Part shown: piece after piece, positions 12,346-37,491 of the stretch | Layout of the letters: every line of letters starts with the position of its first letter | Position numbering within the stretch: position 1 is the stretch's first letter | Translations under genes and position numbers: made by a program | Origin: Bradyrhizobium lablabi | Lineage (GTDB): Bacteria > Pseudomonadota > Alphaproteobacteria > Rhizobiales > Xanthobacteraceae | Length of the DNA: 64,000 bases | Assembly (NCBI RefSeq): GCF_900141755.1 | Contig: NZ_LT670844.1 | Coordinates: 4,278,001 to 4,342,000 of the forward strand | Direction of reading: 5' to 3' | Notes under the pieces: model-generated | Database searches by the model: none | Told to the model about the DNA's origin: nothing | What the model saw: only the letters and a program-made list of their open reading frames with translations

Positions 12346-12500
12346 CGTCATGCCCGGGCTTGTCCCGGGCATCCACGTCTTGGCCGCACGCGAATAGGCG
12401 AATAGCGAATGGAGAGTAGCGAATAGAAATTCGCCATTCGCTACTCGCCATTCGCCCCCTGCCAAGACGTGGATGGCCGGGACGAAGCCCGGCCATGACG
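12346..12500. repeat. composite repeat: GAATAG-type inverted repeat nested in a REP pair
   Basis: The outer unit starts CGTCATGCCCGGGCTTGTCC and ends GGCCGGGACGAAGCCCGGCC followed by ATGACG, each half being a hairpin, with CCACGTCTTGG matched by CCAAGACGTGG. Between them (12391-12456) sits a second type of inverted repeat built of reiterated GCGAATAG/GAATGG words on the left and GCCATTCGCTACTCGCCATT on the right. The inner type recurs at 18369 and 36253, the outer type at 33363. Confidence 0.75.
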
Positions 12501-18368: not shown

Positions 18369-18446
18369 AGGCGAATAGCGAATAGGGAGTGGCGAATAGC
18401 GCTGCTCCCTTATTCTCTACTCGCCATTCGCCACTCACCATTCGCG
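18369..18446. repeat. GAATAG-type inverted repeat inside the atp operon
   Basis: Left arm of reiterated GCGAATAGCGAATAGGGAGT words, right arm CTACTCGCCATTCGCCACTC plus ACCATTCGC, with GCTGCTCCC in the loop. It starts two bases after the atpD stop and ends 8 bp before the atpC ATG. The atpD-atpC mRNA can fold it into a large hairpin over the atpC initiation region. Same family as 12391-12456 and 36253-36321. Confidence 0.8.
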
Positions 18447-36252: not shown

Positions 36253-36321
36253 ATGGCGAATGGGGAGTGGCGAATGGCGAATAGGGAAGGTCGCCCGCCA
36301 TTCGCCATTCGCTGCTCGCCC
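36253..36321. repeat. GAATAG-type inverted repeat upstream of the ROK gene
   Basis: Left arm GGCGAATGGGGAGTGGCGAA plus TGGCGAATAG, right arm CGCCATTCGCCATTCGCTGC plus TCGCC. It belongs to the same family as 12391-12456 and 18369-18446. It lies in the divergent rplU/ROK intergenic region (36021-36384), which otherwise contains no gene. Confidence 0.75.
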
Positions 36322-36384
36322 GTTGGATGAAACCAACGGGTTCCAGCGCCGTTGTCCCCCGAATTTCCGCTATGGGCAGGGCAA

Positions 36385-37491
36385 ATGTCCGAAGACACCT
36401 TGACGACCTCCGGCATCGGCAGGCACGGCGCCACCCGCCTGCCGTCAGTCGATGTCGACAGCTTCAATATCGAATTGAAGGACGACGACGGCTTTCTCGG
36501 CGACCGCGCCAGCAAAGGCGCGTTTCGCAAGATTTTGGATACGCTCCGCAAGCCGCTGAAGAAGAACGGCGAAGATCCGTTCGGTAGCAAAGATGCAGTC
36601 ACCATCCCCAAGACGACGCTCGACGAGGCGTTGGTGGGTGACGACGTCGGCGCCGCCGCGCTGGTGCATGGCGCGATCGAGGAATTCGCGCAGGAATTAG
36701 CCTATGTGACGCAGCGGTTTCTCAAGACCAAGGCCTGGGCCGACACCGAACGGATCGTGGTCGGCGGCGGCTTTCGGCAGAGCCGGGTCGGCGAGCTTGC
36801 CATCGCGCGCACCGATATCATCCTCAAGGCCGAAGGCTTCAAGGTCGATCTGGTGCCTATCCGGTTCCATCCCGATGAAGCGGGCCTGATCGGCTGTCTG
36901 CACCTGGCGCCATCCTGGATTTTCGAGGCCCATGACAGCATCCTGGCGGTCGATATCGGCGGCACCAATATCCGCTGCGGCGTGGTCGAGACCCGCTGGA
37001 AGAAAGCGGCCGACCTGTCGAAAGCCTCAGTCTGGAAATCCGAGCTCTGGCGCCACGCCGATGATGAGCCGACCCGGGAGGGTGCGGTGAAGCGGCTGGT
37101 GAAAATGCTCAAAGAGCTGATATCGGCTGCCGACAGCGAGGGCCTGAAGCTTGCGCCCTTCATCGGCATCGCCTGTCCCGGCGTGATCAACGAGGACGGC
37201 TCGATCGCAAAGGGCGCGCAAAACCTGCCGGGCAATTGGGAGAGCAGCAAATTCAATCTGCCGGCGAGCCTGATCGAGGCGATCCCGGAGATCGGCGGTC
37301 ACGACACCGCGGTCCTGATGCACAATGACGGCGTGGCGCAGGGCCTCTCCGAGGCGCCGTTCATGCAGGATGTGGAGCGCTGGGGCGTGCTGACCATCGG
37401 CACTGGTCTCGGCAATGCGCGCTTCACCAACCGCAAGAAGGACAAGGATCAAGACAAGGACGAGAAGAAAGAGAAGAAGAGCAAGGATTAA
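36385..37491 (+). CDS. ROK-family-like protein with permuted domain order
   Basis: 368 aa. The sugar-kinase/repressor ROK motifs are present but in swapped order. Residues 90-176 match the C-terminal end of ROK proteins (ERIVVGGGF at 122-130, PDEAGLIGCLHLAP at 163-176). A short linker (177-186) then leads to what is normally the N-terminus: the phosphate-1 motif ILAVDIGGTNIRCGVV (186-201), IACPGVINEDGSI (262-274), the catalytic-Asp region HNDG (313-316) and TIGTGLG (337-343). The usual central GEIGH and zinc-binding CxCGxxGC motifs are absent, and a Lys/Asp-rich tail ends the protein. ATG 36385 has no strong SD. Function could be a kinase or regulator; no HTH is seen. Confidence 0.75.
   Translation: MSEDTLTTSGIGRHGATRLPSVDVDSFNIELKDDDGFLGDRASKGAFRKILDTLRKPLKKNGEDPFGSKDAVTIPKTTLDEALVGDDVGAAALVHGAIEEFAQELAYVTQRFLKTKAWADTERIVVGGGFRQSRVGELAIARTDIILKAEGFKVDLVPIRFHPDEAGLIGCLHLAPSWIFEAHDSILAVDIGGTNIRCGVVETRWKKAADLSKASVWKSELWRHADDEPTREGAVKRLVKMLKELISAADSEGLKLAPFIGIACPGVINEDGSIAKGAQNLPGNWESSKFNLPASLIEAIPEIGGHDTAVLMHNDGVAQGLSEAPFMQDVERWGVLTIGTGLGNARFTNRKKDKDQDKDEKKEKKSKD

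Follow-up and report, generated by a model that had tools for sequence, protein, structure and literature searches.

A conserved natural circular permutant of the ROK sugar kinase family encoded in Bradyrhizobium lablabi

The window, that is, the whole stretch of DNA analysed, comprises 64,000 nucleotides of Bradyrhizobium lablabi (contig NZ_LT670844.1, positions 4,278,001 to 4,342,000) and carries on its plus strand, at 36385..37491, a gene that starts with ATG and encodes, with the stop codon included in these coordinates, a protein of 368 amino acids. That protein is, almost certainly, a naturally occurring circular permutant of the ROK sugar kinases, which have the ASKHA fold, and computation finds the permutation to be real, conserved and held by a single clade. 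The overall explanation that we favour, at a probability of about 0.7, is that of a permuted, probably active kinase which is linked to stress in some rhizobia. The swapped order had been proposed in a sequence-only reading of the DNA, and both the open reading frame and the motif positions given there are confirmed by the sequence and its translation: ERIVVGGGF (residues 122-130) and DEAGLIG (164-170) lie ahead of ILAVDIGGTNIRCGVV (186-201), IACPGV (262-267), HNDG (313-316) and TIGTGLG (337-343). Since the test for the canonical ROK order, N-lobe before C-lobe, failed, the protein is filed as a permuted relative and not as a canonical member of the family.

The strongest single result was obtained when the family profile, in its native order, was compared with a tandem ROK-ROK profile. 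The alignment was one run (101-378 to 202-450, 238 columns, score 135.8, E 3e-17), as is expected for a circular permutation, while in controls with shuffled N columns (n = 20) the best score was 97.9 and no more than 174 columns were aligned. Against a single ROK profile, built from 36 canonical Pseudomonadota ROKs, the same native-order profile aligned in two separate stretches, swapped, with scores of 92.5 and 45.0. The two halves were also aligned separately, a check that the sequence-only reading had put forward, and both match ROK. The residues ahead of the N-lobe motif correspond to ROK positions 202-260 over 59 columns, with a probability of 84.4% in a profile of 80 of 105 rows (the other 25 were missed by the splitting pattern and left out) and of 82.7% in the 374-sequence set described below, compared with no more than 1.4% for any of the 30 controls whose columns had been shuffled; the C part corresponds to ROK positions 5-143 at 97.9-98.1%.

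Single-profile searches see less of the rearrangement. Pfam PF00480 matches residues 187-350 with its positions 2-142 of 294 (E 3.2e-8, 33.9 bits, cut-off 22.9), so that it is the first half of the model alone that passes the cut-off, and the C-termini of the NanK model and of PDB entry 2aa4 match residues 108-175 and 95-175, respectively, both weakly. One result weighs against the permutation: putting the halves back in canonical order brought no gain with plain Pfam in two of three proteins, as P0001 scored 33.6 instead of 33.9 bits and L016 still gave two stretches, L009 alone being matched in one continuous stretch. The single-profile HMMER comparison is too weak for the C-lobe, and profile-profile comparison was therefore needed. 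The half-match, together with the lack of any Pfam ROK match when the N-terminal part was scanned alone, would also suit a fusion of half a ROK protein with an N-terminal domain of other origin, with no permutation at all; but the profile, tandem and fold tests all put that N-terminal part in the ROK C-lobe, and such a fusion is very improbable.

The AlphaFold2 model of the protein contains both lobes (mean predicted local distance score, pLDDT, 89.5; predicted template-modelling score, pTM, 0.86). In structure comparisons, where the aligned ranges are given by their first and last residues only, residues 182-350 match ROK N-lobes, and residues 1-182, compared by themselves, give a modest match to ROK C-lobes. 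Coverage of only half of each structure is to be expected, because aligners that follow chain order cannot align a whole canonical ROK here. Profiles with their controls, the predicted full-length structure and the separate structure matches of the halves thus bear out the circular permutation. The open active site entertained in the sequence-only reading finds nothing in its favour, the model having both lobes at high confidence; most likely the chain still closes into a two-lobed kinase.

Along the chain, the remainder of domain II, the ROK C-lobe, comes first (residues 19-174, 36439..36906, on the plus strand like the other parts of the gene), as predicted secondary structure, profile match and fold match agree. 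It comprises strand 22-27, helices 44-61, 76-84 and 88-113, strand 123-128 with the adenosine-type motif GGG (127-129, 36763..36771; invariant in an alignment of 89 sequences), and a last helix, 163-174. What had been taken for an N-terminal extension of about 90 residues is therefore mostly C-lobe: residues of about 19-113 form its strand and helices, and no domain has been added. The old C- and N-termini are joined by a short linker at residues of about 175-184 (36907..36936), in keeping with the joiner of some ten residues expected beforehand; in the predicted structure it sits between helix 163-174 and strand 185-191 and holds a short helix, 177-182. Domain I, the ROK N-lobe, follows with DIGGTN, CPG, QNLPG and HND (residues 185-330, 36937..37374), and the fold ends on the opening pair of domain II strands, which carry the phosphate-2 motif GTGLGN (residues 331-350, 37375..37434; predicted strands 332-338 and 342-349). 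The chain runs from the rest of domain II through all of domain I to the first two strands of domain II. Residues 351-368 (37435..37488) are the Lys/Asp-rich tail, modelled at low confidence. The tail is present as described before, but it is lineage-specific: only in the search set of Bradyrhizobium type is it typical (median 20 residues, 87% Lys, Asp and Glu, 120 rows), with medians of 5 and 1 residues in the other two search sets (118 and 73 rows).

The CxCGxxGC zinc motif and GEIGH are hallmarks of ROK proteins. Their loss, already noticed in the sequence-only reading, is complete, as neither occurs in any of 361 family sequences, while the placing of the new ends at the site of the loss does not hold. 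By the predicted strands (332-338, 342-349, then 22-27), the chain is opened in the β-hairpin after TIGTGLG, just past the phosphate-2 strand of domain II. Residues of about 14-60 fill the position of the GEIGH/CxCGxxGC segment; both motifs are gone, yet the segment is present, so the zinc site has been replaced and not simply cut out. A permissive alignment puts HGATRLP, in which H14 is invariant, opposite GEWGHNHLP and GFLGDRASKGAF opposite the GCxExxxSG region, a correspondence that is suggestive only. In comparison with canonical ROKs (GNE ManNAc kinase 2yhw, Streptomyces griseus glucokinase 3vgk, Escherichia coli NanK 2aa4; PF00480), the protein shares both lobes, the phosphate, adenosine and HND motifs and the predicted fold, and differs in the swapped lobes, the lost CxCGxxGC and GEIGH and the new ends in the phosphate-2 hairpin.

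The rearranged order is shared by the relatives. The family set of 377 sequences combines 361 proteins with 16 locus translations, the window protein being in both groups, and in 374 of the 377 the C-lobe part comes first, with the N-lobe motif beginning past residue 130 and the phosphate-2 motif after it; the other three (P0109, P0156 and P0299) were missed by the splitting pattern and left out. A first protein search gave at least 8000 candidates, all at E 0.001 or better, of which the 120 listed span 95-100% of the query. Searches that started from a Pseudoxanthomonas-type member and from a member of the Alphaproteobacteria with Reyranella among its named relatives each gave at least 120 relatives, at coverages of 88-100% and 92-100%. 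A scan of species genomes found at least 565 relatives among 595 pattern matches, the best 80 all being full length or nearly so. Matches occur in 207 plasmid records, 204 of them over at least 80% of the query (Rhizobium 111, Sinorhizobium 79); the gene was found on pSymB of Sinorhizobium meliloti and on Rhizobium plasmids, and one record is from the betaproteobacterium Roseateles. The family is present in Alpha-, Beta- and Gammaproteobacteria. Thirteen pattern matches in viral contigs included no relative.

Among 299 sampled Pseudomonadota genomes, 34 have a match, full-length at 48% identity or more in 16: the seven of the window's genus (its own genome included), the two others of its family and a scattered rest. 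The other 18 have weak matches only, and those translated were mostly canonical-order ROKs; at L029 (genome G051), residues 33-177 weakly match a 278-residue open reading frame without the look of a ROK protein. In two genomes of the window's genus (G200, at C151 and C102, and G217, at C1) the permuted gene is present in two full-length copies, and G200 has in addition an N-terminal fragment matching residues 1-42. In the window genome the permuted protein is the only PF00480 match, and a normal Glk is also encoded.

An assembly error, a frameshift or a decayed pseudogene was found to have no point in its favour and is the least credible of the alternatives. Full-length copies recur in the sampled genomes, the species genomes and the plasmid records, and third codon positions hold most of the changes in ten of ten relatives (140 codons compared). 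The order kept in 374 of 377 sequences, the profile controls and this third-position bias together exclude such an artefact.

A tree of the N-lobe part (35 rows, 172 columns; unrooted, with long stems) places the 11 permuted rows on one side of a branch with support 98/96, found in 99% of 200 bootstrap trees, from which a single permutation event is read. The permuted rows stand beside rows resembling the polyphosphate glucokinases (PPGK) and apart from 16 other ROKs, again at 98/96. This position raises the possibility of a permuted PPGK relative with polyphosphate as donor. The PPGK-like ROKs of canonical order (relatives of NF045942, such as L028 and L186) match the permuted N-lobe at 97.3-97.6% and also lack a zinc motif, CxCGxxGC being absent from the 13 such rows on reading of the alignment, so that the loss of zinc need not stem from the permutation. 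The best NCBIfam match is, moreover, polyphosphate-glucose phosphotransferase, at 29.1 bits, far under the cut-off of 250, and the NF045942 equivalog test thus failed. PPGK-like ROKs are, however, shorter, of normal order, and have a C-lobe that does not match the permuted N part (1.3% against the 13-row PPGK profile, 82.7-84.4% against zinc-type ROKs). A PPGK changed in order only was rejected on that mismatch, and polyphosphate as donor seems improbable. As to the nearest canonical branch, the C-lobe evidence points to zinc-type ROKs and the N-lobe tree to the PPGK-like ones. As a separate observation, short PPGK-like ROKs of canonical order, with 222-227 residues after trimming and a shortened N-lobe (L189, L191 and L198 in G200, G217 and G289; L192-L197), occur in the window's genus, in its family and in family f3, and are absent from the window genome.

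The motifs expected of a kinase persist. Among the 361 sequences GTGLGN is found in 360, HND..QGL in 357, QNLPG in 356, [CG]PG in 343 and GGG ahead of DxGGT in 340, and in the alignment of 89 the nucleotide and catalytic motifs DxGGT, GTG, GGG and ND are invariant or at least 90% conserved. This persistence favours an active phosphotransferase, and kinase activity is somewhat probable from the motifs. DIGGTN, GTGLGN and GGG would hold the nucleotide, and D315 of the HND motif (37327..37329; at least 90% conserved) would act as the base, as this residue does in ROK kinases; the nucleotide would give up its phosphate to a small acceptor that is probably a sugar. The loss of GEIGH and the zinc motifs and the new invariant residues leave room for more than one acceptor, and glucose is a doubtful candidate. 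ROK repressors act as sugar sensors and regulators, and the permutation, the lost GEIGH and the new residues may likewise have ended turnover in a permuted sugar- or nucleotide-binding sensor or regulator. Binding alone, however, would not demand the phosphate, adenosine and HND motifs that are kept across the three search sets, and scanning the protein with Pfam showed no DNA-binding domain, so this non-catalytic role is unlikely.

Control by the general stress response is inferred from the upstream regions. Passages of PMC3892343 give GGAAC-N16-CGTT as the Rhizobium etli EcfG1 site. An exact GGAAC-N16/17-CGTT lies roughly 60-95 bases ahead of the gene in seven of 12 distant alphaproteobacterial loci, representing at least four rhizobial lineages: two S. 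meliloti records, R. leguminosarum, R. laguerreae, Phyllobacterium, L116 (perhaps also Rhizobium) and L117. Six of these seven loci (6-17 kb) have no other copy, and L117 has three in all; random windows from the same sets of loci hold it in 10 of 3760 cases. The exact motif is absent ahead of the gene in L114, L115, L118, Shinella and Methylobacterium, and from all of 86 upstream regions of a set consisting mainly of close kin, the window included. There a one-mismatch form occurs in 64 of 86, as against 1.55 in mononucleotide shuffles, these regions being mostly close kin and not independent.

In the window, GAAACC-N15-CGTT (36329..36353, plus strand), a one-base variant of the EcfG-type motif, is a putative promoter of which related forms are kept upstream in close kin. 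The same positions form, there and in close relatives, a strongly conserved element, TGAAACCAAYGGGTTCC...CGTTGT, partly palindromic as GAAACC-N4-GGTTCC, which could represent either a stress promoter that has diverged or an operator in its own right. GAAACC-N15-CGTT was also tried as a Bradyrhizobium regulon motif and is not supported, with 17 genome sites against 15 for the reversed control; neither this form nor exact GGAAC-type sites were found in the 3.1 kb surrounding nepR. For some rhizobia, then, stress control has good support, and for the window there is no more than a hint of it. Several rhizobia probably make the protein as part of the EcfG general stress response, and for the members with the exact motif we consider this quite likely.

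The neighbours of the gene vary between lineages, and among 14 loci compared each recurrence seen involves just two or three of them; the open reading frame sets of four of these loci (L115, L117, L118 and L120) are without the permuted gene itself, which makes the comparison incomplete. A divergent otsB adjoins the gene in R. leguminosarum and R. laguerreae, with a homologue at the same place in L116. A peptidase of the NAGGN system is near it in S. meliloti, DUF892 in L117 and L120, and an ATP-dependent DNA ligase in L118. Genes of these last three kinds are typical of the general stress response, and several neighbours look like stress genes. EcfG controls the trehalose-6-phosphate pathway in B. 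diazoefficiens, according to parts of PMC8092242. One possible role of the protein would be to provide a sugar phosphate for the metabolism of an osmoprotectant, trehalose; the adjacency of otsB and the promoter motif suggest, as one hypothesis, a supply of glucose-6-phosphate for trehalose synthesis under stress. SMb20472 was rejected as the name of the S. meliloti 1021 gene, passages of PMC7268258 using this tag for arcB2.

At about even odds, a single ancient ROK permutation in the phosphate-2 hairpin founded a widespread family of active kinases in Alpha-, Beta- and Gammaproteobacteria, without the zinc site and with a changed acceptor pocket (invariant H14, G39 and D40), which was recruited to the rhizobial general stress response. 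Permutation would then have occurred naturally within the hinge-closing hexokinase/actin fold, and the new ends would lie close to the ATP phosphate site. An active enzyme would mean that the hexokinase/ROK fold can accommodate new chain ends at the phosphate-2 loop, which matters for the folding and evolution of ASKHA domains. Rhizobial genetics gains a conserved, probably stress-controlled putative kinase, which its place on S. meliloti pSymB and Rhizobium plasmids makes easy to delete and assay. The same succession, C-lobe of one half and then N-lobe of the next, is met in mammalian hexokinases 1 and 2 (2nzt, 4foi, 1dgk), which have two complete kinase units per chain, unlike the one permuted unit here. 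A structure match spans residues 257 to 690 of the 2nzt chain, and 4foi, a less clean case, is spanned from residue 46; that the match crosses the hexokinase junction is our reading of the first and last aligned residues only.

Among the papers listed in searches of the open-licence PMC literature, no description of a permuted ROK was found, nor any paper that links RpoE2 with the ROK family or bears this gene's motif. The text of PMC12696579 does not mention permutation, parts of PMC1079889 treat permutation between kinase fold families in general, and the main text of PMC6180224, on S. meliloti sigma factors, contains neither ROK, glucokinase nor the motif. Relatives are named 'ROK family protein', 'Glucokinase', 'predicted NBD/HSP70 family sugar kinase' or 'hypothetical protein' in their source records, and with these names and a Pfam half-match the permutation goes unmarked.

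Around the gene in the window, open reading frames resembling rplU and rpmA, by names read from translations, adjoin on the opposite strand, and a tRNA-Ser lies downstream. Hairpin-like repeats of GGCGAATGGCGAATAG units on both strands occur at 12397-12456, 18370-18439 and 36255-36313, with 17 matches in the window (up to three mismatches) against 1.24 expected in shuffles; the last repeat is just upstream of the permuted gene, and similar stretches lie ahead of the gene in several close relatives.
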